NCBI GenBank assembly: GCA_024277525.1 | Contig: JAJRUZ010000043.1 | Span: forward strand, 1 to 60,226 | Direction: 5' to 3' | Length of the DNA stretch: 60,226 nt | Source: Caldifarciminota bacterium | Lineage (GTDB): Bacteria; Hydrothermota; Hydrothermia; Hydrothermales; JAJRUZ01 | Shown here: positions 3,583-46,965 of the stretch, piece after piece | How positions within the stretch are numbered: the first letter of the stretch is position 1 | Layout: each line of letters begins with the position of its first letter | The notes under the pieces: model-generated | The model's database searches: none | Told to the model about the DNA's origin: nothing | What the model saw: the letters and a program-made list of their open reading frames with translations, nothing else | Translations under genes and position numbers: made by a program

Positions 3583-4226
3583 TAAAATACATTCTTTATG
3601 GTTCAAAACTCTTAGTTTTTTTTGCTTCAAAAACATTTTATTTATCTTATTTACCCCCTGAAACATTAAAAATTGAAAAACCTTTATTTTTCAGGGATGT
3701 TAAAACGGATAATTTCTTTGTTTATTTCTTGCTTAATGACGGAACATTGTTCTCACTCAATCCTCAGACAGGTAGTTTAAAATCAAAATTTAAACTTAAA
3801 TCCCTTATTTATTCAAATCTGTTTGATGTTTCATCCACAGGCAATTTTTATTTTTTATTGAACAAAGGAGGTATTTATTCAATTTTAAGACTTAAATTTT
3901 CACCTTTCGACACCACCGAATCTTTTTATGATTTTAATCAAAAAATCATAAATTTTTATGTAATAAAGGATAGTTTTTTCATTTTTGTATTTAAAGATAA
4001 AACAAAAATATTCAGAAAAAAGAGTGAAATTCTTGAAATAAAGGGGGAAAGTAAAAACTGCGGGAAATTCAAAAATATATTTTTTGATTATAAAAACGAC
4101 ACCCTTTATATTTTTAATGGAAAATTAAAAAAGAAGTTCCTATCAGGATTTAAATCGGTTTTTATGAACGATAAAGGTATCTTTGTAATTAAAAATCAAG
4201 ACATAGAATTTATTAAAAATGATTGA
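3579..4226 (+). CDS. Uncharacterised envelope protein, propeller-like strands
   Basis: 215 residues, not recognised. It has a hydrophobic N-terminus (ILYGSKLLVFFASKTFYLSYL) that could be an export signal or anchor. Next come short beta strands of alternating aromatic and polar residues, including GTLFSLNPQTGSLKSKF, which resembles a PQQ-type beta-propeller blade. There are no catalytic motifs and no cysteine cluster. It overlaps the RqcH-like gene by an ATGA junction and the next envelope gene by 8 nt, so the pair 3579-7185 is probably made together. Confidence 0.55.
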   Translation: MIKYILYGSKLLVFFASKTFYLSYLPPETLKIEKPLFFRDVKTDNFFVYFLLNDGTLFSLNPQTGSLKSKFKLKSLIYSNLFDVSSTGNFYFLLNKGGIYSILRLKFSPFDTTESFYDFNQKIINFYVIKDSFFIFVFKDKTKIFRKKSEILEIKGESKNCGKFKNIFFDYKNDTLYIFNGKLKKKFLSGFKSVFMNDKGIFVIKNQDIEFIKND

Positions 4227-7185
4227 AATTATCTTATTCTTCAATTTAACGAAGGGAATAATAACTTTCAATAATCCTTATTTGGTTTTAAGTTCACCCA
4301 TTATTTCAACTATAAAGGTTTTTAAAGATTCAAATCCTGTTCCATACAAATTGAAAGGAGATACGGTTTATCCTCTTATACCATTAAAGAACGGAGATAC
4401 AATTGAAGTTATTTATGAATCTTTTTTCTATAAAAAAGACACCACCCTTTTTAAACCGAAACCCTTTATTCCTGAAGAAAAAAAAGAAAAAAAAGAAACC
4501 TTTAAGATTGAGTCAGAGAGCCAAAATATAAATTTTTCGGGTGAAAAAACGCTTTCTGCAGGTATTTCTGATCAAGGTTTCAAAATTGAACAAAGTATGC
4601 ATTTTGAGATAAGCGGTGAAATATCCGAAGGATACAGGGTAAGCGGTGTAATAAGTGATGAATCATATCCGGATGAAGAGGGATTTACAAGAAATCTATC
4701 AGAACTTGAGGAAGCAAGTATCAGATTTGAAGGAAAGGACTTTTTCGCGAGATTGGGGGAATTTAAAATTAAATCAAATTCTTTCCGGAATTTCAGCAAA
4801 GAGATGCTCGGGATCGAGGTTAAATACAGAAATAACAGAGAGGAATATTCCTTTTCCTTAGGATATCCGAGGGGCAGGTTTAAGACCGTGTATATTGAAC
4901 TTATAAACAAAGACATAAATACTTTTACCCTCATTGACCCTTTAAAAGAGAAAATCGTTCCGGGTTCAGAAAAGGTCTATCTTGATGGAAAACCTTTAAA
5001 ACCGGGCAGGGAGGGTGATTATATCATTGACTATTCAAGGGGAACAATAACTTTAACTCCCAACCTCTTTTACACCTCAAATTCAAATCTAAGAGTTGAT
5101 CTTGAAGTAACCGAAAATGCTTATTCTAATTGGACTTTTCTATCAGGATTTAAAAAAAATTTTAAATTTTTTAATTTAAATCTCATGTTTTTCAACGAAA
5201 GTGACATTCCTTCAATGCCGAAAATTTTACTGACAGACGAAGATAAAGAATTTCTTAAAAATGTAAATGATACCTCATGGGTTATGTTAAACGGAATAGT
5301 TACGGTAGATTCAGGAGAAGGTGATTATGTATTAAAAAATGATACTCTCATTTATGTAGGTAAAAATAAAGGAGACATAAAACCGCAATTTATTTTTGTA
5401 GGTCCTGGTAAAGGTGATTACGATTATGTAGAAGAGAAGGGTTATTTTGTTTATGTAGGGGAAAATATGGGGAGTTATAAAATAGGCAAATGGGGTTTAA
5501 CCCCTAAGAGTCTTAAAGATTTTATAATCGGTTTAAACGCAAATAAAAAAAATTTAAATTTTAATTGTGAAACCGGTTTCAGTTTCTTTAATCAGAATCT
5601 CTTTAATAAATATTTAAAAAAGGGATATTTTAATAATATAAAATTTAAAATCAATTTACCTTTTAAAATATCTCCGGGTTTTGAATTTTATTTTTTAAAT
5701 AAAAAAGATTTTAAATCTCCTTTCAGGGTGACAAGTGAAAATTATTTTTATTATTGGGCAAAGAAATTTAAGGGAAATTTTTATGATTTAAGATTGAATC
5801 CTTTTATTGATTTTTACAAATTACTTAAAATCAAATTCGGTTACTCATATTTAGGTTCAGAAAACCTAAAAATGGTAAAAAAGGAAATCGGGTTTGAGGA
5901 AAGAATAATTTTAAATGCCGATTTTAATTTTGAGGAAGTCAGTTTTAAGAATTATAAATTTAAAAGGTACAAATTTTATATACAAAAGCAGGGAACAATA
6001 ATTCCCTTTTACGGGTATAACTATGAAATAGACACATTGAACAACAAGAAAATAGAAGAAAAAACAGGGTTTAAGATAAATTTCAAAAAACTAAAATTCG
6101 GTTATGAACTTTTATCTTTCAGGTACTTAGATAAAAGAGAATTAAAAAATGGATTTAAAATTACCTTAAATCATGAAAAAGGAAATTTGAGATTAACCTT
6201 GAATGACATAAGAAAAATAAAAGCTTTTCAAAAGAATAAAGATTTCCTTTATTATGCAGAGGCAAATTTATATCCAAATGAAAAATTTAACTTTCATTTA
6301 GTTTCAAACTTAAGAAAAGAACAGGGAGAGAAGAGGATTTTTGAATATGTATATGTAGGTAAAGGGAGAGGGTCTTTTGAATATGATTCCTTGAAAAAAA
6401 TTTTTTATCCTGATCCGGAAGGTTCTTATATTAAGAGGGTCAGGGAAATTCCGCTGGGAGAGGGAATATATAAAATGGAAAACGAGGGTAGTTTAAATTT
6501 TAATCTTAATAAATTTTATTTAGGCTCCGGAATAACTTGCAGAAATGAAAAAGGCGGAGAGAAAAAAGATTATCTATCTTTTTATTCATTCTTAAACTTT
6601 AATTTCCCTCTTAATCCCTCTTTTTCCTTTATTTTTAACAAGGATGAAAATTATTTATTAAACGAAATCTTTAAAAATAAAGACATAAATATGAATTTAA
6701 CTGTTAAAAAAACATTTTTGAATAATTTCACTTTTGAGACCGGTTTTGATTTTAAAAGCAATTCTTTTGAAAGTTACGGAAACAAGTATGTAAAAAGAAC
6801 ATACGGTGTAGTATTCTCGGGCAATTATTTTTTAAAAGAAAAAGAGATAAGGTTAAAATTATTACCCGGTTATATTATTTACAATTATTTTTTACCCGAG
6901 GAAGAAAAGTTTACGGGTTATACCGTAGAGACAAAAACTCATTTTTTATTTTTGTTTTTATTTAAGACAAAATTTAAATCGGATATAGGAGTTATTTTCA
7001 AAAAGCCTTTTATTAAAAGTTATGTTTCAAATTTTGACAAAGACAGATGGAGAATTAATATTGAAAGCAGTATGGAAAGAAATTTAACGAATAATATTTT
7101 GCTCATATTGAAAGCCAGGTATAGAAGGGGATCAGTTTCAAAGCCGTTTTATAATTTTTATTTAGAAAGCAAATTACTTTTCTGA
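4219..7185 (+). CDS. Large envelope protein with a SprA-like module, probable outer-membrane barrel
   Basis: 988 residues with a short hydrophobic start. Residues about 248-281 read PGSEKVYLDGKPL... DYIIDYSRGTITLTP. This is the same module found at about residues 518-548 of the SprA-family protein at 40439-45862 (EGSEEVYFG... DYIIDYETGTLTIL). Three glycine-rich stretches of the form 'YVGKGRGSFEYDS' or 'FVGPGKGDYDYVEE' repeat through the middle. From about residue 450 the chain is alternating aromatic/polar strands with repeated lysine and asparagine, as in a large beta-barrel. It has no T9SS sorting tail and ends in an aromatic strand (YLESKLLF), typical of BAM-inserted barrels. Function is unknown; a SprA paralogue or T9SS-related surface protein is an inference from the shared module. 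Confidence 0.7.
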   Translation: MIEIILFFNLTKGIITFNNPYLVLSSPIISTIKVFKDSNPVPYKLKGDTVYPLIPLKNGDTIEVIYESFFYKKDTTLFKPKPFIPEEKKEKKETFKIESESQNINFSGEKTLSAGISDQGFKIEQSMHFEISGEISEGYRVSGVISDESYPDEEGFTRNLSELEEASIRFEGKDFFARLGEFKIKSNSFRNFSKEMLGIEVKYRNNREEYSFSLGYPRGRFKTVYIELINKDINTFTLIDPLKEKIVPGSEKVYLDGKPLKPGREGDYIIDYSRGTITLTPNLFYTSNSNLRVDLEVTENAYSNWTFLSGFKKNFKFFNLNLMFFNESDIPSMPKILLTDEDKEFLKNVNDTSWVMLNGIVTVDSGEGDYVLKNDTLIYVGKNKGDIKPQFIFVGPGKGDYDYVEEKGYFVYVGENMGSYKIGKWGLTPKSLKDFIIGLNANKKNLNFNCETGFSFFNQNLFNKYLKKGYFNNIKFKINLPFKISPGFEFYFLNKKDFKSPFRVTSENYFYYWAKKFKGNFYDLRLNPFIDFYKLLKIKFGYSYLGSENLKMVKKEIGFEERIILNADFNFEEVSFKNYKFKRYKFYIQKQGTIIPFYGYNYEIDTLNNKKIEEKTGFKINFKKLKFGYELLSFRYLDKRELKNGFKITLNHEKGNLRLTLNDIRKIKAFQKNKDFLYYAEANLYPNEKFNFHLVSNLRKEQGEKRIFEYVYVGKGRGSFEYDSLKKIFYPDPEGSYIKRVREIPLGEGIYKMENEGSLNFNLNKFYLGSGITCRNEKGGEKKDYLSFYSFLNFNFPLNPSFSFIFNKDENYLLNEIFKNKDINMNLTVKKTFLNNFTFETGFDFKSNSFESYGNKYVKRTYGVVFSGNYFLKEKEIRLKLLPGYIIYNYFLPEEEKFTGYTVETKTHFLFLFLFKTKFKSDIGVIFKKPFIKSYVSNFDKDRWRINIESSMERNLTNNILLILKARYRRGSVSKPFYNFYLESKLLF

Positions 7186-7220: not shown

Positions 7221-9098
7221 TTAAAAGAGTGAGCTATTATGCCCGTCGTGGCATCCTCCGGCACAATAGTCCGTAGACGTCTGATTTGCATGCCATCCGG
7301 GTCCTCCCAGAACATGACAGGCTGTACAAAGCTCATACCAATAACCATATTGAGTTACACTGACTGGTTGTCCATTAACAACGGTCTTTATAAGGAATAT
7401 ATTAGGAGAACCATGAGGATCATGACAATCAGTGCAGGCAAGCACATAATTAAAACCGTTTAATATTTGATTCTCACTATAAGGAGCAATAACATCTCCG
7501 TAACTTGTGCCTGTTGCAACACTGTCTCCGTGAACATCTCCGTAAGGACCCCAGTCAATGGGATCTCTGGCTAAGGAGTCAAAGTCACTGCTGTGACATT
7601 CGAGACAAAAAGTTACATAATCAGGAATAGAATCATAAGGGGCAAGTGTATCTACAGGGTCTTTCATCCAGCCTATCAGAACATCGGTAGAATCAGGAAA
7701 AACTAACGGTCTTTGAGCAGTTATAATATGCGGATTATGACAATTTGTACACTCAACTTTTCGTGTCCTATCAAGGGGCTGGTATATCTGTTCTGAGTCA
7801 ACAACAGGGTGATGGGTTGAATCCTGAAATTTACTTTTTACATCATATGCAGGAATTCCATCATGACAGGTATAACACAGATCTTCCTCTTCATTGTTAA
7901 GCGTATCACCTATGCTTATTTCTTCAACACATAACTTCGGATATACACCAGTAGTCGGGGAATCATCCGGCCATCCATGCGGCCAGTGACAATTAAAACA
8001 GGAATTCCTGAAAGAGGAAGGAAGGGGAGAATTTGGAATTGCATCAGCGGCTCTTGCAGGAGGCAGGACATTCCCGAGTGTATCCACATAGGCATAATTT
8101 GAGCCGTATTGTCCTCCGGGCCATAAAACGGTGGTATCTGTTAAATGAAGCCCTAAATTATTATTGTTAAATGTATGACACATTGTACAAATTTCATTTA
8201 TTATTTGATTCAAAAGATAACCGTCTCCGCTTCCTGTCTTGCGAATTACATATCTATTTCCGCCTATAATTCCTGCTCCGAACAGAGAATCTGTCCATGA
8301 AATTGTATTGGAAGTATTTGAACTTATTATTCTTACTTGATACCAATTTCCTGTATCACTTCCCGCAGGGTATATCTTAACTTGCCATCCCACAAATTGA
8401 TTTGCTGCCCAGTTTTTTAAAGTATCGGTCAAAGAGGTTCTTGTTCCAGAGCTTGCAGTTCCGTATTCACTTGTATCCGAATAAGCATAATGAACATCAT
8501 GACAGGTCATGCATCCGATGGTGTCTCCTGCAAAAAGGGGCAAATTAGCAGGAACTGAATAATCCTTGGTTGCAGGTATCGGAACACCTACAGGATGTGA
8601 AGTATAAGGAGGAGTATTTTGACTTCGCGGGGCATGACAATCCCTGCACATCTCCTCTGCATCAGCCATTAAGAACGGCTTTCCATTTCTATGATTGTGC
8701 TGTTCATGACAGGTTGAACACACAAGATTATTTGCATCAACTCCTGTGGTAACATAATAATTTATATAAGTTGCAGTAGAAGTGCTTGCATCATACCCGG
8801 AATTATCACCCGGTACATCCCAGGCATGATGTATCCCGCCTGTTCCGGGATTTGCCTTTTTCGTCTCATCTATAACAAAATTCTTCGCATCCCCTGTAGG
8901 ATTATGACATAAAGAATAACACATATTGTAATTACCGTTTACAATTGCCAAATAAGGACCCAATGCATTATGAGGGTCATGACAGGATTTACACCTCACA
9001 TCCCAATCTTTTATTGAAGAATCATTATTGTGAGGATAATCGGTAGCAAGGAGAAAAGAAATGAAAAACAAAATTAAAATTCCTATTTTATTTTTCAT
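7221..9098 (-). CDS. Multihaem c-type cytochrome, 13 haem-binding sites
   Basis: 625 residues with a signal peptide (KIGILILFFISFLLA). I count eleven CXXCH motifs (residues about 36, 127, 151, 196, 304, 367, 408, 450, 498, 555, 591) and two CX3CH motifs (CYSLCH near 60, CAGGCH near 612). Several are followed by DPH, NPH or WPH, as in doubled-CXXCH/NrfB-like cytochromes. Residues 205-290 form a haem-free insert (TLKNWAANQFVGWQVK... NTISWTDS) of a type also seen in Geobacter-like surface cytochromes. It should be an exported electron carrier. No T9SS tail and no membrane anchor are seen after the signal. Its ATG overlaps the stop of the secreted propeller upstream, so the two are co-expressed. 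No cytochrome-maturation genes are in the window. Confidence 0.92.
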   Translation of the reverse strand: MKNKIGILILFFISFLLATDYPHNNDSSIKDWDVRCKSCHDPHNALGPYLAIVNGNYNMCYSLCHNPTGDAKNFVIDETKKANPGTGGIHHAWDVPGDNSGYDASTSTATYINYYVTTGVDANNLVCSTCHEQHNHRNGKPFLMADAEEMCRDCHAPRSQNTPPYTSHPVGVPIPATKDYSVPANLPLFAGDTIGCMTCHDVHYAYSDTSEYGTASSGTRTSLTDTLKNWAANQFVGWQVKIYPAGSDTGNWYQVRIISSNTSNTISWTDSLFGAGIIGGNRYVIRKTGSGDGYLLNQIINEICTMCHTFNNNNLGLHLTDTTVLWPGGQYGSNYAYVDTLGNVLPPARAADAIPNSPLPSSFRNSCFNCHWPHGWPDDSPTTGVYPKLCVEEISIGDTLNNEEEDLCYTCHDGIPAYDVKSKFQDSTHHPVVDSEQIYQPLDRTRKVECTNCHNPHIITAQRPLVFPDSTDVLIGWMKDPVDTLAPYDSIPDYVTFCLECHSSDFDSLARDPIDWGPYGDVHGDSVATGTSYGDVIAPYSENQILNGFNYVLACTDCHDPHGSPNIFLIKTVVNGQPVSVTQYGYWYELCTACHVLGGPGWHANQTSTDYCAGGCHDGHNSSLF

Positions 9099-10120
9099 TT
9101 TATCTTTACTCCTTTTTTAATAAAAAATTTACCGCTTTTTTCTTTGAGAATTACAAAATAAACCCCGGGTTTTATATTCAGATTTAACTTCTTCTCAATT
9201 TTACCTCTTAAGGAATTAAGCCCGGAAATCACCTTTATTTTCCTTCCATCAACAGAGAAAATGCTTAACTCATAGACTCCGGGAGGAACAATAATATTTA
9301 AGAACAGTCTTTTTCCTTTACTCTCTATACCTTCAAAAGGCTTCTCATCAATTTTAATAATTTGATACGCAAATATATCTATTCTTGAGTTTCTTTCATT
9401 AAGAATATAAAGTTTTTTATTTTTCCATATAAGTCTCGTAGGTGTTTTGAACTCCAAACTGTCCGAACCGTAATTTCCGAATGAATCAATTATTGTGCCT
9501 TTTGCAGGAAAAATTTTATATATTTTACCGTACAACGCATCGGAAACCAAAAGGTTCCCTTCGTCATCAAAGACAATTCCTCCACCTATTGTCCCTATTT
9601 TTTCAAAGATTGTATCTATAAGACTTCCAGACAAATCAAAAGCAATGATTCTTATCTTCGGTGCCGGTCCCCCTCTTTCCAAAACATAAAATTTTCTATT
9701 CTTTAAAATAAAGTCCCGGGGTTTATAAAGGGGAAATGAAATCCCTTTTTGCTCTATTCCATTAGCTGAAAGATAAATTTTGAGTATTTTGGAAGATTCC
9801 CTTTCAAGCAAATAGAGTGTATCCTTCACTTTCAATCCTCTTATATAGAACCCCGGAGGCAAATCCAAGAGTTTTGCCTTTCGCCCTTTTGTATAAGCAA
9901 AAAGTATGTTGTTACTCACAAAAAATAAAGTGTCCCCGGAAGAAAAAAGTGCATAAGGTTTTTTCACAATGATTTTAAATCCTGCTTGATAATTTAAAAT
10001 AAAATTCTCTTCCGGGTAAGAAACCCATATTTTATCTTTACAAATAGCAAAATCACTCGCAAGTCCCCTATAGCTAATGCTGCCAATCAAATAAATTGAA
10101 AAAATTATCAATTTAATCAT
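9095..10120 (-). CDS. Secreted beta-propeller (NHL-like) protein with T9SS-type C-terminal tail
   Basis: 341 residues. A hydrophobic export signal is followed by about 250 residues of propeller repeats: GGGIVFDDEGNLLVSDALYG is an NHL blade, and KLYILNERNSRIDIF and RDFILKNRKFYVLERG are similar. The last 75 residues ([19 protein letters not shown]... GVYFVILKEKSG... KKGVKIK) resemble the type A T9SS sorting domain, so it is probably exported through the SprA/PorV system and retained at the surface. It heads a two-gene operon with the 13-haem cytochrome. A strong AGGAGGT lies before the ATG. What it binds cannot be inferred. Confidence 0.72.
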   Translation of the reverse strand: MIKLIIFSIYLIGSISYRGLASDFAICKDKIWVSYPEENFILNYQAGFKIIVKKPYALFSSGDTLFFVSNNILFAYTKGRKAKLLDLPPGFYIRGLKVKDTLYLLERESSKILKIYLSANGIEQKGISFPLYKPRDFILKNRKFYVLERGGPAPKIRIIAFDLSGSLIDTIFEKIGTIGGGIVFDDEGNLLVSDALYGKIYKIFPAKGTIIDSFGNYGSDSLEFKTPTRLIWKNKKLYILNERNSRIDIFAYQIIKIDEKPFEGIESKGKRLFLNIIVPPGVYELSIFSVDGRKIKVISGLNSLRGKIEKKLNLNIKPGVYFVILKEKSGKFFIKKGVKIK

Positions 10121-21203: not shown

Positions 21204-21452
21204 ATGTGCCTTGGTATCCCGGGTAAAATTATAGAAATTTATGAAAAGAATAATTCAAAATTCGGAAAGGTGGATTTCAGCGGGATCAAGAGAGAGGTCT
21301 GTCTTGATTTAACTCCAGATGCAAAGGTGGGTGATTATGTGATAGTCCATGTGGGTTTCTCCATCTCAATTCTTGATGAAAAGGAAGCCATTGAAACTTT
21401 AAAAACATATAAGGAATATATGGATTCCTTGGAAGATGAAATATCTCTCTGA
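21204..21452 (+). CDS. hypC: Hydrogenase maturation chaperone HypC
   Basis: 82 residues starting MCLGIPGKIIEI, with the essential N-terminal Cys2, then KVDFSGIKREVCLDL and VGDYVIVHVGFSI, the HypC/HupF signature. It partners HypD to carry the Fe(CN)2CO unit to the [NiFe]-hydrogenase large subunit. It heads an operon with hypD (17-nt overlap). No hydrogenase structural genes are in the window. Confidence 0.96.
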   Translation: MCLGIPGKIIEIYEKNNSKFGKVDFSGIKREVCLDLTPDAKVGDYVIVHVGFSISILDEKEAIETLKTYKEYMDSLEDEISL

Positions 21453-22530
21453 GTTCAGAGACCCAACCGCAGTTGAGAAAGTTATTGAAAAAATAAAAGA
21501 TATATCCAGAAAAGAATACACAATAATGGAGATATGCGGTTCCCAGACCCATTCAATTCTGAATTCAGGAATTGATGCCTTACTTCCCGAAAATGTTGTG
21601 CTTGTGCACGGACCGGGCTGTCCTGTATGTGTTACTCCGAAGGAAATGATTGATACCGCCATTGAGCTTGCAAAGATGAAGGAAAATATCCTTTTCACAT
21701 ACGGAGATATGCTCAGGGTTCCGGGTTCAAAAGAGTCCCTTTTTCAGGCAAGGGGAGGGGGAGCAAATATTAAAATGGTTTATTCTCCTTTTGATATTCT
21801 TGATTTTGCAAAGAATAACCCTGATAAAAATGTTATATTTTTCGGAATAGGTTTTGAAACAACGACCCCTGCAAATGCAATGACGATATTGAAAGCAAGG
21901 GAAATGAACTTAAAGAATTTCTATGTTTTAATAGCACAGTTCAGGGTTCCTCCTGCCATTTCCGCGATATTAAATGACCCGTTTAACAAAGTTCAGGGCT
22001 TTCTTGCACCGGGTCATGTATGCACTGTGATGGGAACAGAGGAGTATATTCCTATTGCTGAAAAATATAAGGTTCCGATTGTTGTCACAGGTTTTGAACC
22101 CCTTGACCTTGCTGAGGGAATCTATATGGTTATAGAAAGCCTATCAAATGGAGAACACGGTGTCAAAATTCAGTATAAAAGGTCGGTAAGACCCGAAGGG
22201 AATTTAAAGGCAAAAGAAATTATAAATAAAGTTTTTAAAATAGGAAATCAGAAATGGAGAGGGATAGGTGAAATTCCTGAAAGCGGATGGGTCTTAAAAG
22301 AGGAATTTGAGGATATGGATGCAAGGAAGCTTTTAAATAAAAAAATAGAAGAAATTGAGGAGACAAAAGAGGGATGCATTGCAGCCCTTATATTGCAGGG
22401 AAAAAAGAAACCGAATGACTGCGAGTTATTTGCTAAAACCTGTACTCCTCTAAATCCTCTCGGCGCCCCGATGGTTTCTTCAGAAGGAGCATGTGCTGCA
22501 TATTATAAATATAAAAAATATGAAAATTGA
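21436..22530 (+). CDS. hypD: Hydrogenase maturation protein HypD
   Basis: 364 residues, normal length. MEICGSQTHSILNSGIDALL, HGPGCPVCVTPKEMID (catalytic cysteines), APGHVCTVMGTEEY and the C-terminal iron-sulfur cysteines of CELFAKTCTPL/SSEGACAAYY are all present. HypD is the scaffold on which cyanide and CO are attached to iron, using its [4Fe-4S] cluster and the HypC cysteine. It overlaps hypC at its 5' end and the Mth938-like gene at its 3' end. Confidence 0.97.
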   Translation: MKYLSEFRDPTAVEKVIEKIKDISRKEYTIMEICGSQTHSILNSGIDALLPENVVLVHGPGCPVCVTPKEMIDTAIELAKMKENILFTYGDMLRVPGSKESLFQARGGGANIKMVYSPFDILDFAKNNPDKNVIFFGIGFETTTPANAMTILKAREMNLKNFYVLIAQFRVPPAISAILNDPFNKVQGFLAPGHVCTVMGTEEYIPIAEKYKVPIVVTGFEPLDLAEGIYMVIESLSNGEHGVKIQYKRSVRPEGNLKAKEIINKVFKIGNQKWRGIGEIPESGWVLKEEFEDMDARKLLNKKIEEIEETKEGCIAALILQGKKKPNDCELFAKTCTPLNPLGAPMVSSEGACAAYYKYKKYEN

Positions 22531-33351: not shown

Positions 33352-36009
33352 TTACCTTATGACCTGTACCTTTTTAATATCTCTCCTCTTCGGATTTTCA
33401 AGAACCAGGAAGTACGTCCCTGTCGGTAGAGGTCCGGATTTTACGGAATTTGTCCATTTAAAGGTGTAAAAACCGGGGTCAAGGGTTCTTTCGAAAACTT
33501 TACCCACGCGTCTTCCTGAAACATCCCTTACATAAAGTTTCACCTTTCCTCGAATATCGTTCGTGAATTGAATTACGGTGTAATTTCTGGAAGGATTGGG
33601 AGCAATAGAATGAATTGCGAGCGGTCTACCGTAAATAGAGACTTTCACTTTAACAGGACCGAATGTTTGGACTCCACCGGATACCGTTCTTAGAACAGCT
33701 TTATAAATATATGTTTTTTTCCATTTTACATTTTTGTCAGTATAGGCGAATTCAGATTTTGCAACTTTTCCGGTGTAAACAGTTTTAAAGCTTTTTGCAT
33801 TTTCTTCTTTTTTATAGATTGTGAGATTTCCTGCACTTCTCAAACCGCTCACTCTAATTACAACCCCCTCAGGTGATTCGGTTGCAGCCATATGTGCTTC
33901 CATCACTCCGGCAAGTATATCTATAATTGCAAATCCTTCATAAGGCAGGTAATTACTGTATTTCACAACCGTAACCCACATTGTATCAAGGTCAACAGTC
34001 GGACTTATTTGAAGTGTATCAACGCCGTTAGCATTAGTGTAACCTCTCACATACATTGTGCTATCTTCTTTACACCACAATGTTATTAAGGCACTATCAA
34101 GAGGCGTGACTCCGTCTTGATCATATACTTGAACTATCACATCTACGGGAGTTGAAGTTACGGTTATGGTATCAGGATGGTTAACAACCATCGGAACCGG
34201 CACATCCGTCCATATATGAAGCTGAGGGTCTCCGAATAAATTATATTCCTGCATGCACCAGTTAACAATAGCGTCCGCTGCTATGTAAGGGACTTGTTGT
34301 GATTTCATTCTGTCTACAGCAGCTCCTAATATATCATAACCTTCCTGTCCCCATGCTTTTGTAAACCAGATTGACTGCCATTCTGAACGTCCCAAGTTGG
34401 AAAGTGTTCCCCAGCCGTATCTATAATTCAGGAGAAAAGCAACTGCACCACGTCCTACAAGCGTCATTAGATGTTCTGCATAAGAATCATAGTCATAAGC
34501 TCCGGGAAAACAGCTTATGGCATACATGATAAAGAGTCTATCACCGTTTAATAAGGAAGTCTCAATATCCGAAACCTGAACAGGATCACCGGAGCCGTAC
34601 ATCACTCCTATTTCATCACCGTGTCCCGCAGCATGCCAGAACCCGACTCCTACATTTAAGGTATCAATGGTCGCAATAGAACTGTAATTTGCCAGAATTT
34701 GATCATCAAGGAAAATATCTGTAAAACCAACAGGGTCATATTTGGCAATGGAATCATTAACCTGAATGCCTCCGTAACTCGGTCTGAAAAGAAGTTCCGA
34801 GGTAAGCAGTATTCTCGGCTGATAACCCAAGGGAGGATTTTTCTCATATGTAAGAGTCTTATATACAAATAGAGAGCAGGCGTCATATGCTTCCAGAGCT
34901 TCATCAAATAAAACCCTTCCAACATATACCTCCTGATAAAGGTCTCCATCCCAATCTGCATACCAAAAATCAGCTGCGATGGTGTCTTCATCAGAATAAT
35001 ATCCGGCTGCGGAAGAAGTGATAAAGACATCCTTTCTGGGCATCCACGTTCCTACATCGGTTTCGGCGTTTGTATTTAAAGGATCATCAGCATCTACATC
35101 ATCTTCTCCCACAAGTAAAACATACTGAACCTGCCAAGCTGTATCAACATAAGCAATAAATTCCTTTATTTTATCCTGAACAGTTAGTCCCGGAAAATTA
35201 GCTTCAATAGAATCAAGCACAACTATTTTCGTAGGTACACCTTTTTTTGTTTTCCAATAAGCAAAAGGCTCCATAGCTTCATATATTTCCGGATGGTCCA
35301 AACCATCTATATTTATATCAGATGTGTCAACAATTATTACATATTCAACAAGATTGTCAGGAACAGGAACAAAAACTAAAGGAGCAAACGTATTTACATC
35401 TTCCGGATTCACGACCAAATCCGACACAATTTTTTTGGCAATCCTATATTTATTAAAACTTATCTTTTTTACAGGATTTACTCCTTCTTGATATCTTATC
35501 AGAATTTCAATTTCCGAATAAAGGTACAACTCCTTTGTTGAAGGAATATATTGAATCGGCGAAATAGAAACAGTGACAAGCTTAAATCCGTTCTTTGTTC
35601 CCACATGTGTTATTTTTGCTATTTCCGAAGGATAAGGCTTATTTGAATTATAAATTTTCGGATCAGGTCCTACAAAGGGAGGCAATTCTTTCTTATGAAA
35701 CGGCACTGCCTTTTGAACAGGATAAATATTATATTTGCCGAGGAATATTCTTTTTGCTTTAACAACCTTTAACCCTTCAACCTCTGCGGAAGGCGGAATA
35801 ACAAAAGTATAAGGAATCACCGGCAATTGAGGAGCACCGACCCGATACCAGTAGCTTGCACCTTTAACTTTGAGTTTTACAACATCATAGCCTTTTTCCT
35901 TTGTGAAGGAGATATCCTTTTTAGAGTAGTAGAAGGTCTTGGAGAGGGTACCGCCGTTCAGAACAGCGGCCATCAGACATAGGGCACATATTTTTTTTAC
36001 ATACTTCAT
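33352..36009 (-). CDS. Gingipain-like cysteine protease (family C25) with T9SS sorting domain
   Basis: 885 residues. The signal peptide (KKICALCLMAAVLNGG) is followed by an N-terminal propeptide (about 20-220), then the caspase-like C25 domain: VQYVLLVGEDDVD near 295, the catalytic His463 in WHAAGHGDE and Cys500 in MYAISCFPGAYD. An Ig-like linker comes next. The last 85 residues (HSIAPNPSRNYTVIQF, KVKLYVRDVSGRRVG, GPLPTGTYFLVLEN) are a clear type A T9SS sorting domain, so the protein leaves by the SprA/PorV system and is anchored or released at the surface. Gingipains degrade extracellular protein; C25 also includes the sortase PorU. PorU lacks a sorting tail, so this is a secreted substrate. 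AAAGGTGAT precedes the ATG. Confidence 0.93.
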   Translation of the reverse strand: MKYVKKICALCLMAAVLNGGTLSKTFYYSKKDISFTKEKGYDVVKLKVKGASYWYRVGAPQLPVIPYTFVIPPSAEVEGLKVVKAKRIFLGKYNIYPVQKAVPFHKKELPPFVGPDPKIYNSNKPYPSEIAKITHVGTKNGFKLVTVSISPIQYIPSTKELYLYSEIEILIRYQEGVNPVKKISFNKYRIAKKIVSDLVVNPEDVNTFAPLVFVPVPDNLVEYVIIVDTSDINIDGLDHPEIYEAMEPFAYWKTKKGVPTKIVVLDSIEANFPGLTVQDKIKEFIAYVDTAWQVQYVLLVGEDDVDADDPLNTNAETDVGTWMPRKDVFITSSAAGYYSDEDTIAADFWYADWDGDLYQEVYVGRVLFDEALEAYDACSLFVYKTLTYEKNPPLGYQPRILLTSELLFRPSYGGIQVNDSIAKYDPVGFTDIFLDDQILANYSSIATIDTLNVGVGFWHAAGHGDEIGVMYGSGDPVQVSDIETSLLNGDRLFIMYAISCFPGAYDYDSYAEHLMTLVGRGAVAFLLNYRYGWGTLSNLGRSEWQSIWFTKAWGQEGYDILGAAVDRMKSQQVPYIAADAIVNWCMQEYNLFGDPQLHIWTDVPVPMVVNHPDTITVTSTPVDVIVQVYDQDGVTPLDSALITLWCKEDSTMYVRGYTNANGVDTLQISPTVDLDTMWVTVVKYSNYLPYEGFAIIDILAGVMEAHMAATESPEGVVIRVSGLRSAGNLTIYKKEENAKSFKTVYTGKVAKSEFAYTDKNVKWKKTYIYKAVLRTVSGGVQTFGPVKVKVSIYGRPLAIHSIAPNPSRNYTVIQFTNDIRGKVKLYVRDVSGRRVGKVFERTLDPGFYTFKWTNSVKSGPLPTGTYFLVLENPKRRDIKKVQVIR

Positions 36010-39975: not shown

Positions 39976-40442
39976 GAAAAAATTTAAAAAGACTTGCAAT
40001 AGGAATTTCAACCGGTATCGGTGTTTTTATCCTTGACCAATTTACAAAATTTCTTGCAATGAAGAACTTAACTTACGGAGTTCCTTTTGAAATCCTCGGT
40101 CCTTATTTCAGACTTACTCTTGTTTTCAATCCCTACGGAGTATGGGGACTTCCGATAACAAAGATCATCCCTTATGAACCTGTTGCTATTATTGCAATAA
40201 TACTTATTTTATTTTTTATTGTAAAGGAAAATTTTATGCTTTATAATATATTCTATGGGTTTATACTGGGTGGTGCACTCGGAAATTTGACAGATAGATT
40301 TAAAATGAAGGCGGTTATTGACTTTATTGAGATCGGTATTTCGGAAAAACTGCACTGGCCGATATTTAACATTGCTGATACTTTTATTTCCATAGGCATA
40401 GCAGGGCTTATAATCTTTTCAATATTAAAAAAAGAAAAATGA
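39972..40442 (+). CDS. lspA: Lipoprotein signal peptidase (signal peptidase II)
   Basis: 156 residues from a TTG at 39972 that overlaps the previous TGA (TTGA), with GAGGAAAGGA before it; a GTG at 39945 lies in the same frame but further inside the neighbour. Four membrane helices are visible. ILDQFTKFLA, FNPYGVWG, the first catalytic Asp in GGALGNLTDR and the second in FNIADTFI are present. It removes signal peptides from prolipoproteins and fits with LolA at 300-902. The lspA-ileS pairing is common. Confidence 0.92.
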   Translation: MRKNLKRLAIGISTGIGVFILDQFTKFLAMKNLTYGVPFEILGPYFRLTLVFNPYGVWGLPITKIIPYEPVAIIAIILILFFIVKENFMLYNIFYGFILGGALGNLTDRFKMKAVIDFIEIGISEKLHWPIFNIADTFISIGIAGLIIFSILKKEK

Positions 40443-43400
40443 TTTATTTAACCTTTATTTTTTTTATTCATACTCAAAATTATCTTGACTCCCTTTTATT
40501 GAATGCCATAGAGAAAAACTATGTAAGTGAAAGTTTAAAAACCATTGATTCTATTGAAGTAAAATTTATTTACAGGAAAGATAATTTGATAAGGATTGAA
40601 GGAAAAACTTTAAAGGATAAGGAGAAGGTTGAGGAGAAGATAATTGAAAGTATAAAAAAGGAATTGTCATCCGAGTCTGTCCAAAAAGTTGCAAAGAGAG
40701 GCACGGGTTTAATTCCTGATATAACAATTCCAATACCGGTTGAGCTGCCTTTCGGACTTAAAGAAGAGACAAAGGTTAAGATAAACGGTTTTCAGGATTT
40801 GTCAATGGGTTTGAGGAGAAGGTCTTATTCAAATGAGGCAAAAACAACTCCTCAGGGTTCATCAAGTCCTGAAATTCAGTTAAATCAGCGTTTAAGGGTC
40901 AATACCGAAGGAATAATAGGAGGGAAAATTCACATAAGGCTTGATCATGATTCCGAAAGGGAATCACAGGATTTAAATACGATTAAGATAAGATATGAGG
41001 GAGACGAGGACGAAATAATTAAGTCAATTGAAGGGGGAAACAAAATAGGAAAAGGAGGGGGAGGAGGTCTTTTCGGTATAAGTGCGCAATTTCAACTGGG
41101 TCCTTTGAATCTTAACACAAAAATTGCAAGGGAGGTCGGGAACAGAAAGGAAATAGAATTTGAAAAAGGAGGAGTTGAAATCGACACTCTTGAAATAGAG
41201 GATAAAGACTATGTAAAAGACAGATTTTTTATTCTACCCCTTCTTCCGGGAGAAGAAATAATTTCTGACTCCGTTTATATATTTTATGATGACAACGAGC
41301 CGACTAATATTTTGAAACCTGTTGAAGCAAGAACATTCCTTGAAGATAACCCTGATTCTTTAAGTGACAAAACTTACATTTTCGAATTATTGACAAAAGG
41401 AATTGATTGGGATTTCGCTTTTTGTGGCAATGTAATTCAAATAAAAAAAGAGGATATCACACAAAATTTCCGCCTTGCGGTCTATTATAAAACAACTCAA
41501 AGAAAAATAGGCTATTATAATCCTAATAATCAGAATGATACCGCAAAGCTTATGTTAATAAGAGATGTAGACCTTAACGATGCGGAAGACCCTACATGGA
41601 AATATATGTTAAAAAATATATATTACATAGGGGAACTCAGAGGTGATTCCGGTTCAATTATCATTTACCGTGATGAATCTTCGGTTCCTGTATATGTTGA
41701 AAACGGGAAAACATTCCTCCAGATTCTCGGACTTGACAACAATGGGGACGGTGTCATTGATGAGCAGATTGAATATCAAGGAGTACCTAATTTTATCCCT
41801 TATCAGCACGGATATCTGTTTTTCCCTGACCCCGAGCCTTTTGCTTCTCCTAAACTTTCCAAAAAAGACACAATAATTTATAAATACAGGTCCGGTACAG
41901 AAGTTGAACAGCGAAATGTAAAGTACAAAATAAGAGTTATAACACAGAGGAGACCAGAAGTCATAAATCTGGGATTTACAAGGATAGTTGAAGGGAGTGA
42001 AGAAGTATATTTCGGATCCGAGAAATGGGAAAGGGGGAAAGATTATATAATAGATTACGAAACAGGAACATTAACAATATTAAATGATGAATATAAAACC
42101 GATTTTTCCAGAAAGTTAAAAATAAAATTTAATGAGAGTGCTTTATTCCAAACAAAAAAGAGAACCACTGTTACTTTAAACGGAAATTACGATGTTGGAC
42201 AAAATTCAAAGTTAAATTTCGGAATCAAGTACAGGGGTGAGTCAACAACAGAGCAGAAACCGAGATTCGGAGAGGAACCTAAGAGGGTTCTTTTAATCAA
42301 TTCAAATTTTAATTTCCAAAAAGAATTTTCTTTTAATCCCCTTTCTTTTCTACCCTGGTTAAGAGAGATAAAATCTCCGCTTTTAAAAGCAAGTTTTAAA
42401 TTCAATCAGGCATTTCCTGATCCGAACACCCGGGGTTCTGCCTATCTTGACGATATGGAAGCAACAAAACTTGAAATTCCTATCTCTTTGAGTTATACAA
42501 ACTGGATATACGGTTCACTTCCATCGTATTTGAAAGATGACTCTCTTATATCCCCCGTACGGGTTGAGGATGACTATGTAAATAAACTGATCTGGGTTGA
42601 GACAAACAAATTTACAAATGCTGATATTTATCCCTATGTTCCAGGTGCACAAGCAAAAAAAACAGCAAATGTTATGAAAATTATTATAAGACCGGGTACA
42701 AAAGGTGATGTTGCATTTGCTTCACTTACACAGCTTCTTTCAAGGGATGGATTTGATTTGTCTTCTTATGATTATATTGAATTAATTATAAAGGCAGATA
42801 AAGGAATTATGGGAATTGATATAGGAACCGAGATAAATGAGGATGCGTTGATGAGGGATGCTCAGGGGAATCTTATCGGTTTGGGTATTCTGAATACCGA
42901 AGACGGTGCAAATGGGGGACCAAGGGATGGACAATATGAAGCAATTGAAGATGTGGGACTTGACATGGCTCCTGATGGAAGTAAAAATGATGCAGGGAAT
43001 GATAATTTCGATGCGGGAAATATTGAGAAAGTGAACGGAACAGAAGGAAACGGACGGTTAGACACAGAAGACCTTAACAGAAACGGTTTTCTTGACAAAG
43101 AGGATCATTGTTTTACTTATGTAATTAACTTAGAGGAGGAAAATTACGATCAGATTAATAACGGCTTTAAATTTTACAAAATCCCCTTAGATAAAGTAAC
43201 AAAAATTTACGGAAAGCCTGATATAAGATTAATTAAAAAAATAAGAATATTCTTTACAGGATTTGACAAAACAGACACAATCTATATAGCAAGACTTTCA
43301 ATTACCGGTAACAGGTATGTAGCAAAAGGTATTTTTAATAAAGGAAAACCTGCAGACAGCACCTCAAAGCAATTTACGATTACAACTTACAGTAATCAGG

Positions 43401-45862
43401 AAGATGCAAAAATTTACTCTCCTCCTCCAGGGGTTCACATAGTTACCACATCCGAAGGTGAAGAAGAGGAAAGGACACTTGTTTTAAAATTCAAAAATTT
43501 TGAACCGAATGATGTAGGAATAGCAATAAGACAGATTCCCAATTATCAAGACTTCTGGGAATATAAAAAGTTAAAATTTTATTTAAAAGCTGTGGTACCC
43601 GATACAATAAAATCTTTACCTACATTTTTTATAAGGTTTGCAAGTGTTGATACCAGCAATTATTATGAATACAGAGTAAAGAATGTACCGAAGGAATGGA
43701 AAGAATTTGAGATTGATATTGAAAAATTTACCCAGTTAAAAAATAAGAGAGGGAACAAATCCACCGATACCCTTTATTCAGATCCTTCTTTTCCCAATTA
43801 TTATGTAAAGGGCAATCCGAATTTTAAGAAAATAAATAAATACATAATCGGGGTTAAGAATGAAAGTAATGAAAAAATGTCAGGGGAAGTATGGTTTAAT
43901 GAATTGATAATTACCACTCCTGACAGGATGGGAGCTTATTCATTTGAGAGTTCAATAAATTACAACTTAGGAGAAATCGGAGGTTTATCTTTTAGTTATT
44001 CCCGAAATTCGGCAGGCTTTGCAGGAGAAAATCTCAAAAGGCAATTAAATTCACAAGAAAATTTGGGAGGAAATATTTCTTTAAATTTAAATAAACTTTT
44101 AAATATAAACTTTTTAAATCTTTCTTTCGGTTATTCGGCTTCAAAGAGTAAGACTCTTCCTATATTCCTTCCCAGTTCGGATATAAAATTGACAAAAGAA
44201 CAATCGGAAAGAGAAAAGAGTGAATCTTTTGCAAACTCATTCAGCTTCAGTATATCACGGAATTTAGCAAATAAGAAAACAGAAGAAGGACTGAAAGATA
44301 AAATTTTCAAATATACAATTGATGCTCTTCAATACAGTACCTCTTTACAATATTCAAGAACCAATACACCTCTTAATAAAAATTACACCAGAAATTTTCA
44401 ACAATCCCTATCATACGGAATAACTATTCCTTTTAAGGGTATAAAAATATTAGGGCAGAGCATAAATCCTCTTCCTCAAAATATCCGAGCAGGAGTATCA
44501 TATTCAAAGATAAAAAGGAAAACCCTTGATTTTGTGTTGCCAGATTCGGTTTGGGCACAGACAATCTCGGTCAAACGGGAAGGCGGGGGACTAAATTACA
44601 ACATATTCAGAATCAGTCCTTTAAATGCATTAAAAATTGACTTTGGCGGAAAAGTCGATTATGACATAGGTCTCAAAAAATTGACAGGGAGGTTTTATGG
44701 AATGGATATCAGAAGAGGTACCAATTATTCATTAAGATACAATCCTACATTACCTTCATTCTTAAGAAACTTTGTAAGCCCTCTTAATTTCTCCTATAAT
44801 GCAACTTTTAATGATGAACATGATCCGATGAACCAGAAGGATAGTTTAAATCCTTTAAGAAGAATTAACAATTATTCAAGTTATTCAATTCAAACCGGTG
44901 TAAACACATTCAATATACTTGCACCTTTGATAAAGCTCATTATGAAGCTCGGTAATCCCAAAGCAATGAAAGACATAGATAAATTAAGGTATCTATTCAG
45001 AAATATAAGTATAACATATACAAGAAACTTAAGTTCAAGATACTATAATCTGACCAAACCACCTTCATTTTACTATGAGATAGGAAGAACAATGAATCCG
45101 CAAATTCAATATGAGGAAAATATAAACAATAGCATCCAAGACTCACGAAATATAGGAGCAAATACAGGGACTAAAATATTTGATATAGGAGTAAATGTGT
45201 CAGGTAACTATCAACAAAGTTTCACCTTTTATCCTGCTCAAAAGATAAAAACAGAAGATTACACCAAGAATTTTCCCAATATAAGTATTCAGGTCGGTAT
45301 GTTAAATAAGAAAATAAAAATACTTGATAGATATTTATCAAACTTATCTCTAAAAAGTTCATATAATTCTACAAACAAGCAAAATATTTCTTCTTATAAT
45401 AAAACTGAAACAAAGACAACAAACTTTACCCCTTTATTTTCCATTCAAGGTAGAACAAGAAATGGTGTAGGGTTCAGTATATCTCACACAAAGACACAGA
45501 GCCTGAGATTGAAGTACAGCGGTAGTACGGTAACAGAAGAAAAGACACTTATGAAAGGAATTCAGGCTTCCCTGGATTTTTCAATCTCAAAATCGCTTTC
45601 AAAAAAGCTCTTCGGATTTATGAAAATAAGGTCTCAGGTTAATGCAAGCATAACTTTTTCACATCAGAATAACAAGACAATAGCCAGAGGGATAGAAAGA
45701 AATAATACAGCTATGACAAGTTTAAACGGAACATTGAGTTTCAGATTTACCGAGGATATAACAGGGAGTGCTACAATGTCTTACAATAACAAAAAAGATA
45801 ATTTAAGGGGAACATCAAATAAAGACTTCGGAATTAACTTCGGAGTAAGGATTAACTTTTAA
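40439..45862 (+). CDS. sprA: SprA-family type IX secretion translocon protein
   Basis: 1807 residues, shorter than Flavobacterium SprA (about 2400). It has a hydrophobic export start. SprA landmarks are in order: RLRVNTEGIIGGKIHIRLDH near 152-170, RIVEGSEEVYFG... DYIIDYETGTLTIL near 516-548, PDPNTRGSAYLDDMEATKLE near 661-678, RPGTKGDVAFASLTQLLSR, and GEVWFNELIITTPDRMGAYS. The C-terminal half is beta-barrel strands ending in FGINFGVRINF. SprA forms the huge single-chain outer-membrane barrel through which T9SS substrates pass, plugged by PorV. The start overlaps the lspA stop (ATGA) and porV faces it 68 bp downstream. SprA homologues also occur outside Bacteroidota. Confidence 0.92.
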   Translation: MIYLTFIFFIHTQNYLDSLLLNAIEKNYVSESLKTIDSIEVKFIYRKDNLIRIEGKTLKDKEKVEEKIIESIKKELSSESVQKVAKRGTGLIPDITIPIPVELPFGLKEETKVKINGFQDLSMGLRRRSYSNEAKTTPQGSSSPEIQLNQRLRVNTEGIIGGKIHIRLDHDSERESQDLNTIKIRYEGDEDEIIKSIEGGNKIGKGGGGGLFGISAQFQLGPLNLNTKIAREVGNRKEIEFEKGGVEIDTLEIEDKDYVKDRFFILPLLPGEEIISDSVYIFYDDNEPTNILKPVEARTFLEDNPDSLSDKTYIFELLTKGIDWDFAFCGNVIQIKKEDITQNFRLAVYYKTTQRKIGYYNPNNQNDTAKLMLIRDVDLNDAEDPTWKYMLKNIYYIGELRGDSGSIIIYRDESSVPVYVENGKTFLQILGLDNNGDGVIDEQIEYQGVPNFIPYQHGYLFFPDPEPFASPKLSKKDTIIYKYRSGTEVEQRNVKYKIRVITQRRPEVINLGFTRIVEGSEEVYFGSEKWERGKDYIIDYETGTLTILNDEYKTDFSRKLKIKFNESALFQTKKRTTVTLNGNYDVGQNSKLNFGIKYRGESTTEQKPRFGEEPKRVLLINSNFNFQKEFSFNPLSFLPWLREIKSPLLKASFKFNQAFPDPNTRGSAYLDDMEATKLEIPISLSYTNWIYGSLPSYLKDDSLISPVRVEDDYVNKLIWVETNKFTNADIYPYVPGAQAKKTANVMKIIIRPGTKGDVAFASLTQLLSRDGFDLSSYDYIELIIKADKGIMGIDIGTEINEDALMRDAQGNLIGLGILNTEDGANGGPRDGQYEAIEDVGLDMAPDGSKNDAGNDNFDAGNIEKVNGTEGNGRLDTEDLNRNGFLDKEDHCFTYVINLEEENYDQINNGFKFYKIPLDKVTKIYGKPDIRLIKKIRIFFTGFDKTDTIYIARLSITGNRYVAKGIFNKGKPADSTSKQFTITTYSNQEDAKIYSPPPGVHIVTTSEGEEEERTLVLKFKNFEPNDVGIAIRQIPNYQDFWEYKKLKFYLKAVVPDTIKSLPTFFIRFASVDTSNYYEYRVKNVPKEWKEFEIDIEKFTQLKNKRGNKSTDTLYSDPSFPNYYVKGNPNFKKINKYIIGVKNESNEKMSGEVWFNELIITTPDRMGAYSFESSINYNLGEIGGLSFSYSRNSAGFAGENLKRQLNSQENLGGNISLNLNKLLNINFLNLSFGYSASKSKTLPIFLPSSDIKLTKEQSEREKSESFANSFSFSISRNLANKKTEEGLKDKIFKYTIDALQYSTSLQYSRTNTPLNKNYTRNFQQSLSYGITIPFKGIKILGQSINPLPQNIRAGVSYSKIKRKTLDFVLPDSVWAQTISVKREGGGLNYNIFRISPLNALKIDFGGKVDYDIGLKKLTGRFYGMDIRRGTNYSLRYNPTLPSFLRNFVSPLNFSYNATFNDEHDPMNQKDSLNPLRRINNYSSYSIQTGVNTFNILAPLIKLIMKLGNPKAMKDIDKLRYLFRNISITYTRNLSSRYYNLTKPPSFYYEIGRTMNPQIQYEENINNSIQDSRNIGANTGTKIFDIGVNVSGNYQQSFTFYPAQKIKTEDYTKNFPNISIQVGMLNKKIKILDRYLSNLSLKSSYNSTNKQNISSYNKTETKTTNFTPLFSIQGRTRNGVGFSISHTKTQSLRLKYSGSTVTEEKTLMKGIQASLDFSISKSLSKKLFGFMKIRSQVNASITFSHQNNKTIARGIERNNTAMTSLNGTLSFRFTEDITGSATMSYNNKKDNLRGTSNKDFGINFGVRINF

Positions 45863-45930: not shown

Positions 45931-46965
45931 TTAAAAAACGTATCCGAGTGAAAATCTGTAATTCTGAGTATCAAAGTCATAAATTGGAGAATCAACTCCG
46001 ATATCAAATGTGAATTTACCCAATTTCACACCCCCACCGAACATAGGACCTTTTCGGTAACCTTCCGCATCCCAGAAATATCCGAATCTCAATGAAACGA
46101 AATCATAATATGTAAATTCAACACCGAAATGCTTCCAAGCCTCCCACCATACATAACTGAATCCCTGCTCATCCCAATCTTTTTTGAGATTAACAAGAAT
46201 CTTTGTGATATCAGATGCAAAAGTAAATTTCACCGCTTCACTCCTGTATAAAGGAAGAGCAATACCTATTTTAAGGGTCCTGGGAAGCGGGTCCTCTCCT
46301 CCACCCTGTCTTGTATATCTGATTCCGGGTCCGAAATTTAAGAGAGAAAGCCCGAAATTTAAACCGGGTAAAATTTTGCTTTCAGAGGAGAATTTATATT
46401 TATATAAAAGTCCTGCATCAAAGGCATACGTTATACCGGTTCCACCACCTCCTGACTCAGGGAAAAATCTCTTTACAAGCCAATCAGGGGCAAGAAAAGA
46501 ATAAATGAATTTTGCGCCGATTCCTACACCGAGATTTTCATAGATTTTATATCCGTAATTTAAAGTAACAGCAAAATCAAAATTAACAAACCTCGCTATC
46601 GGCGTGCCATCCCAGTCATATACCTCTGTCTCACCTGTAGTTAAATATATAATATGTCCTCCAACGGAGCCCAAATCACTCATCGGTTTAACAAATCCGA
46701 AAAACTCATAATACATATCGGGCCATAAACCCGTAAGCCAATTTGAATGCTGTAAAGTTACCTCTGTATTTTCAAAAAACGGAATCCCCCCGGGATTGTA
46801 AAAAGTGGCAGTTGCATCATCAGCAACAGCAGTAAACGCGGCTCCCATCCCTACCGCTCTTGCACCGGGAAATATTGTTAAAAATACAACCGCAGCATCA
46901 CTCGCCGCCGAAAAAAGCAAAGCGGGAAAAACAATCACTATAATTAAAGTTTTTAAAAATTTCAT
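45931..46965 (-). CDS. porV: PorV-family outer-membrane protein (T9SS)
   Basis: 344 residues. The signal peptide LIIVIVFPALLFSAASDAA is followed by the PorV/PorQ signature FPGARAVGMGAAFTAVADDA and ATFYNPGGI. A 14-strand-type barrel ends in NYRFSLGYVF. In Porphyromonas, PorV binds sorting domains and shuttles cargo from SprA to the PorU attachment complex. PorQ-like paralogues share the fold, so the exact role rests on its position beside sprA. AGGAGG precedes the ATG. Confidence 0.88.
   Translation of the reverse strand: MKFLKTLIIVIVFPALLFSAASDAAVVFLTIFPGARAVGMGAAFTAVADDATATFYNPGGIPFFENTEVTLQHSNWLTGLWPDMYYEFFGFVKPMSDLGSVGGHIIYLTTGETEVYDWDGTPIARFVNFDFAVTLNYGYKIYENLGVGIGAKFIYSFLAPDWLVKRFFPESGGGGTGITYAFDAGLLYKYKFSSESKILPGLNFGLSLLNFGPGIRYTRQGGGEDPLPRTLKIGIALPLYRSEAVKFTFASDITKILVNLKKDWDEQGFSYVWWEAWKHFGVEFTYYDFVSLRFGYFWDAEGYRKGPMFGGGVKLGKFTFDIGVDSPIYDFDTQNYRFSLGYVF

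Follow-up and report, generated by a model that had tools for sequence, protein, structure and literature searches.

Background

Operons that combine propeller and cytochrome genes are already known. In the cluster description of PMC10734462, the Uet porin-cytochrome cluster of the Tenderiales and Gallionella comprises genes for an undecahaem cytochrome, a tetrahaem cytochrome, a beta-barrel and an NHL protein, and CX3CH is counted there among the haem sites. In the SEEP-SRB1-type operon of PMC5539420, genes for cytochromes with 16 and 26 haems and for a peptidyl-prolyl isomerase accompany that of a six-bladed propeller, and the Oet/OmcKL conduits have been described in part of PMC10553843. 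In Dethiobacter, clusters in which NHL proteins accompany multihaem cytochromes are reported in a passage of PMC10376724, where the NHL proteins are proposed to aid secretion and surface orientation.

Here we describe a related gene pair on a 60,226-nucleotide stretch of a Caldifarciminota bacterium (contig JAJRUZ010000043.1, positions 1 to 60,226), the whole of which is referred to below as the window. An initial annotation of this DNA had proposed that a 13-haem cytochrome and a secreted propeller with a sorting-type tail may form a surface electron-transfer assembly whose scaffold is exported by the type IX secretion system (T9SS).

Results

The cytochrome and propeller genes (Table 1) share four bases, ATGA, and the overlapping arrangement first reported was correct in its coordinates, strand and lengths. 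Motif positions likewise confirmed the reported haem sites of the cytochrome, with 11 CXXCH motifs at aa 36, 127, 151, 196, 304, 367, 408, 450, 498, 555 and 591 and two CX3CH motifs at aa 60 (CYSLCH) and aa 612 (CAGGCH). In 2000 shuffles of the protein, CXXCH occurred 0.056 times on average and at most twice. The Paired_CXXCH_1 model matched at 88.8 bits (cut-off 20.6), and the DmsE-type decahaem model TIGR03508 reached 79 bits, under its cut-off of 192.2. The haem-free insert, also part of the first description, is conserved in all six phylum members of the cytochrome and was absent from seven more distant aligned cytochromes and from all other open-reading frames (ORFs) of the loci searched.

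Table 1 Features of the propeller-cytochrome pair and T9SS context genes in the window
Feature	Position	Strand	Length or basis
13-haem c-type cytochrome	7221..9098	minus	625 aa
Terminal CX3CH haem site, CAGGCH, aa 612-617	7248..7265	minus	
Haem-free beta-rich insert, about aa 205-292	8223..8486	minus	
CX3CH haem site 2, CYSLCH, aa 60-65	8904..8921	minus	
Secreted six-bladed NHL-type propeller (predicted) with C-terminal T9SS-type tail	9095..10120	minus	341 aa
T9SS type A sorting-tail match (TIGR04183)	9122..9301	minus	
Propeller domain, about aa 14-257	9350..10081	minus	predicted structure and structural alignment
C25 peptidase with propeptide and T9SS tail (context)	33352..36009	minus	PF01364 141.1 bits; TIGR04183 27.1 bits
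SprA/Sov, T9SS outer-membrane translocon (context)	40439..45862	plus	TIGR04189 349.2 bits, cut-off 200
PorV/PorQ-family T9SS outer-membrane protein (context)	45931..46965	minus	NF033709 207.3 bits, cut-off 90

The two CX3CH sites differ in their distribution. Haem site 2 is CX3CH in the three members from the same family and CXXCH in the three class-level relatives, so that among the six aligned phylum members this variant is confined to the own family. Relatives in various phyla likewise have a CX3CH as the last site, which is CX4CH in genomes G029 and G030, and many of the cytochromes from T9SS-bearing groups considered below, like the window protein, end 13-36 residues past such a site. Far from being an oddity, a CX3CH in the last position characterises this subfamily of cytochromes, which corrects the first description. 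The accompanying comparison with NrfA-like proteins found no support anywhere in the analysis; NrfA is known for CXXCK and not for CX3CH.

By reading, the cytochrome starts with a Sec-type signal peptide, and a lipobox is ruled out because its first cysteine is at aa 36. A PDB search with the single sequence gave no match, and a cytochrome profile gave weak ones, the best being 6qvm, 'Multiheme cytochrome cf' (6.7e-10), followed by 6r2q chain A (8.4e-9). A multihaem, secreted and unanchored protein could also be the subunit of an extracellular OmcS/OmcE-like wire that the propeller caps or nucleates, and NHL genes are reported in a Geoalkalibacter locus with an OmcE-like cytochrome in one section of PMC12016550. 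However, among the 12 PDB chains with a match at E<=0.01 none bears the name OmcS or OmcE, and the AlphaFold model of the cytochrome, built from 11 sequences, is unusable (mean pLDDT 36.9); a filament is in our view quite unlikely. The size of the haem-free insert and one weak PDB match to an ammonia-forming nitrite reductase (E 0.0026) would suit an enzymatic role, in which the multihaem protein turns over a small substrate and the propeller is its substrate-binding or stabilising subunit, but all 13 haem sites are CXXCH or CX3CH and the genomic company of the pair, described below, is conduit-like, which makes an enzyme very unlikely.

For the propeller protein, a Pfam scan returned no propeller family at E<=0.1, and in NCBIfam the only such match, of NHL type, was weak at 26.6 bits against a cut-off of 350. 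An AlphaFold structure model based on 10 sequences (mean pLDDT 74.9, pTM 0.64) was aligned by VIA-align to NHL propellers with Z up to 25.7 and an rmsd of 2.7 over 233 residues, and across the 50 propellers listed Z was 22.2 to 25.7 over 223-239 residues. On the strength of this model, the window propeller is predicted to be a six-bladed NHL fold. The earlier identification of a propeller, although without Pfam support, is thus borne out by the predicted fold and by its NHL structural matches in Foldseek and VIA-align. Residues 271-340 of the model form a separate, C-terminal beta domain. PorZ (PDB 5m11) was the second Foldseek row for the model, at an rmsd of 10.9; PorZ has two propellers, and it was rejected as the identity of the window protein because size and propeller number differ.

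When the C-terminus was compared with sorting-domain profiles, the sorting-type tail proved borderline in the window protein, which fell just under the curated cut-off of TIGR04183 (22.2 bits, cut-off 23) and under that of PF18962 (17.6 bits, cut-off 27). Three of five orthologues passed TIGR04183 (26.9 bits in G029, 27.2 in G030 and 35.0 in G054), and this model did not match those of G043 and G044. In a genome-wide search, the window tail scored 22.7 bits, or 23.2 together with its neighbours in the frame, as one of 73 such matches genome-wide. The window also encodes T9SS proteins (Table 1), including a C25 peptidase that is possibly a PorU-type sortase or a T9SS cargo. As SprA is present in 145 of the 147 phylum genomes, nearly the whole phylum has T9SS, and the T9SS genes in the window are background and nothing specific to the pair. 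A separate observation concerns a 988-aa protein at 4219-7185 on the plus strand, convergent with the cytochrome gene, which has a barrel-like alternation signal (z 4.1) and, at 4951-5169, a fragmentary SprA match that stays under the cut-off (25.4 bits).

The cytochrome was found in 6 of the 147 phylum genomes, namely its own, G029 and G030 (same family) and G043, G044 and G054 (same class). In each of the six the propeller gene lies directly upstream, although these carriers represent three families, so that the co-occurrence counts are not independent and stand for few independent events. The genes overlap by 4 bases in the own genome, G029, G030 and G054, and are separated by gaps of 16 and 13 bases in G043 and G044, respectively. 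A direct search with the propeller at E<=1e-5 recovered the own-family orthologues and missed those of G043, G044 and G054; the propeller profiles of these two groups align over 267 columns (E 3.7e-5, probability 71).

To extend the comparison across phyla, contigs were searched with the cytochrome. The single sequence found no relative, and the six-sequence alignment found 78 loci in Bacteroidota, Acidobacteriota, Gammaproteobacteria, Verrucomicrobiota and others. Upstream neighbours on the same strand, of at least 250 aa, with fewer than three CXXCH and a gap of -300 to 400, were available at 39 of the 78 loci and downstream neighbours at 23. The loci outside these sets had contig ends, opposite strands, or short or haem-rich neighbours, gene calls being ORF-based and greedy; L057 was lost in this way, as an antisense ORF masked its propeller, which was located separately. 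NHL matches were present in 31 of the 39 upstream neighbours and Por_Secre_tail in 16 (E<=0.001), and the 23 downstream neighbours gave two NHL, 11 ResB and three cytochrome c assembly protein matches. When the propeller profile was built from phylum members only, it picked out 12 of 37 genes in the upstream position, as against 20 of 334 others (Fisher p 9e-6). Cytochrome homologues that consistently lacked a propeller would have spoken against the proposed assembly; instead, the two are paired in every phylum genome with the cytochrome, and the pairing recurs across phyla. That the two genes are mere neighbours without a functional connection would be in keeping with the rest of the window, which holds no other multihaem gene (the remaining six-frame motif matches are isolated), but it is contradicted by the 6/6 pairing in two genomic contexts and by the enrichment across phyla, and we regard it as hardly credible.

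Geothrix loci L102, L103, L106 and L111 carry a second cytochrome subfamily, in which the last haem site is a CXXCH about 72-76 residues from the end; these loci also hold propeller-like genes.

In T9SS-bearing groups, the sorting signal was divided unevenly between the partners. The tail profile (E<=0.01) matched 14 of 19 propellers, counted at 15 Bacteroidota or Chlorobiota loci and four WOR-3 loci including the window. None of the 20 cytochromes, from these loci and from L073, which has no upstream gene, carried a sorting tail, and TIGR04183 was not among their 16 matched families. The cytochromes of L074, L081, L112 and L115, which reach a contig end or come close to one, were not part of the tail count. 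At L068, L102 and L103, an extra cytochrome gene stands between the propeller and the matched cytochrome. The tail asymmetry was not found in the open-licence PMC literature searched.

These counts bear on where the pair resides. It could be periplasmic, with a propeller whose tail has degenerated and which helps the cytochrome to assemble or dock there. The tail scores under the curated cut-offs here and the two unmatched orthologues point that way, as do the presence of the propeller in relatives outside the T9SS-bearing groups and the SEEP-SRB1 operon, whose propeller and cytochromes are predicted to be periplasmic in part of PMC5539420. Tail matches on 14 of 19 propellers and three phylum orthologues over the cut-off argue against a periplasmic pair, which we consider unlikely.

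In two relatives, the pair stands in a conduit-like neighbourhood. The gene order in G054 is tetrahaem cytochrome, barrel-like protein of 536 aa, propeller, 15-haem, 11-haem, 8-haem and 7-haem cytochromes and NHL protein, followed by genes that, by sequence reading, are Rieske- and cytochrome b-like; in G043, up to the contig end, it is tetrahaem, barrel-like, propeller and 15-haem. In the own genome, a separate contig, C72 (L043:5893-11448), holds together tetrahaem, 528-aa barrel-like, undecahaem, 8-haem, 7-haem and NHL genes, and the undecahaem protein has nine CXXCH, one CX3CH and one CX4CH site. The genomes with the undecahaem gene are precisely the 6 of 147 that have the window cytochrome; both genes are missing from G028, which belongs to the genus of G029 and G030. 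The window pair resembles a part of a larger conduit cluster that has been moved elsewhere. Against a conduit, the propeller of G044 adjoins an 18-haem cytochrome instead of a barrel.

The alternating-residue signal of the barrel-like proteins had z values of 5.0, 2.8 and 1.8, compared to 4.6 for SprA and 2.5 for PorV, and was below zero for four cytosolic controls and the window propeller. This alternation is support, and no proof, for a putative outer-membrane barrel, and the 528-aa barrel is a prediction. The barrel candidates (528-536 aa) had no match in Pfam, NCBIfam or PDB sequences, likeness between those of the two lineages was not detectable (hhalign E 0.36), and a search with the 528-aa protein found it in 3 of 147 genomes, all from the own family.

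Other multihaem genes were seen in the own genome. By haem count and reading, contigs C9 and C25 (L044, L046) hold clusters of 8-, 9-, 16- and 18-haem genes, some of which adjoin genes read as Rieske- or cytochrome b-like. Within the window, genes for HypD (21436-22530, plus strand), an AIR-synthase-type protein (24995-25957, plus strand) and FlpD/iron-sulfur flavoprotein (26664-29129, minus strand) suggest a possible hydrogenase or heterodisulfide-type metabolism.

Discussion

We favour, with a probability of about 0.58, the reading that places the pair at the cell surface, as the outer end of a porin-cytochrome conduit whose propeller is delivered by T9SS. The propeller would be exported via Sec and then T9SS, directed by its C-terminal tail, and be retained at the surface. 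The lack of both an N-terminal anchor cysteine and a sorting tail makes a docking partner for the cytochrome plausible, and the 13-haem protein, with its signal peptide, would dock on the propeller. Electrons would move, in one direction or the other, between inner-membrane cytochrome complexes, periplasmic multihaem proteins, an undecahaem cytochrome in the barrel and the outer 13-haem cytochrome. The undecahaem partner and the barrel would be those encoded on contig C72 alongside another NHL propeller and cytochromes of 4, 8 and 7 haems, and the gene evidence supports the window pair and the C72 set as one putative system. What speaks against the conduit is that the window tail lies under both curated cut-offs and that two of the six orthologues have no tail match.

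A more speculative and rather unlikely reading is that the propeller acts as a T9SS-addressed escort, the sorted protein, encoded immediately upstream, binding the haem-loaded, tail-less cytochrome and bringing it across or to the outer membrane, in a division of labour that would have been kept in WOR-3 and Bacteroidota. If true, surface cytochromes would have a route that requires neither a lipid anchor nor a sorting signal of their own.

At this locus, a T9SS-sorted propeller would enter a recurring propeller-cytochrome operon, which offers a testable answer to how T9SS bacteria might place multihaem cytochromes at the surface. It also makes a candidate electron conduit in only 6 of the 147 genomes of the phylum, for which no described conduit was found in the literature searched.

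Compared with known systems, the window propeller resembles PorZ, a T9SS surface component, in joining a propeller to a T9SS C-terminal domain, but the PorZ chain has 748 residues, and the window protein is a single propeller encoded beside a cytochrome gene. The proposed layout of barrel, inner multihaem and outer multihaem protein is that of MtrCAB/MtoAB and PCC3, and the window cytochrome gives a match, albeit under the cut-off, to the DmsE-type model. PF22113, a domain of MtrC/MtrF type, was seen in the G054 orthologue (45.9 bits, cut-off 30) and not in the window protein. Here, unlike in those systems, the outer cytochrome has no lipid anchor and has a propeller as its partner. It is equally unlike the lipoprotein-anchored outer cytochrome of the OetB type, having no cysteine before aa 36.

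The SEEP-SRB1-type operon and Oet/OmcKL share with the present system a six-bladed propeller encoded next to large multihaem cytochromes, together with a conduit. They differ in haem numbers, and the window pair has no isomerase and has a propeller with a T9SS-type tail; in the two genes that flank the pair neither haem motifs nor isomerase matches were seen, and no second large cytochrome stands beside it.

By gene content, the set most readily likened to Uet is on C72 and, likewise, in G054, where undecahaem, tetrahaem, predicted barrel and NHL genes occur together. The described Uet set has trihaem cytochromes and a peptidyl-prolyl isomerase, and C72 and G054 have 8- and 7-haem cytochromes instead; no ORF in L043 encodes a trihaem cytochrome (three CXXCH), and a Pfam scan of the six C72 cluster genes gave no peptidyl-prolyl isomerase match. 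What sets the present system apart from Uet is, in addition, the pairing of a 13- to 15-haem cytochrome with a propeller that bears a tail.
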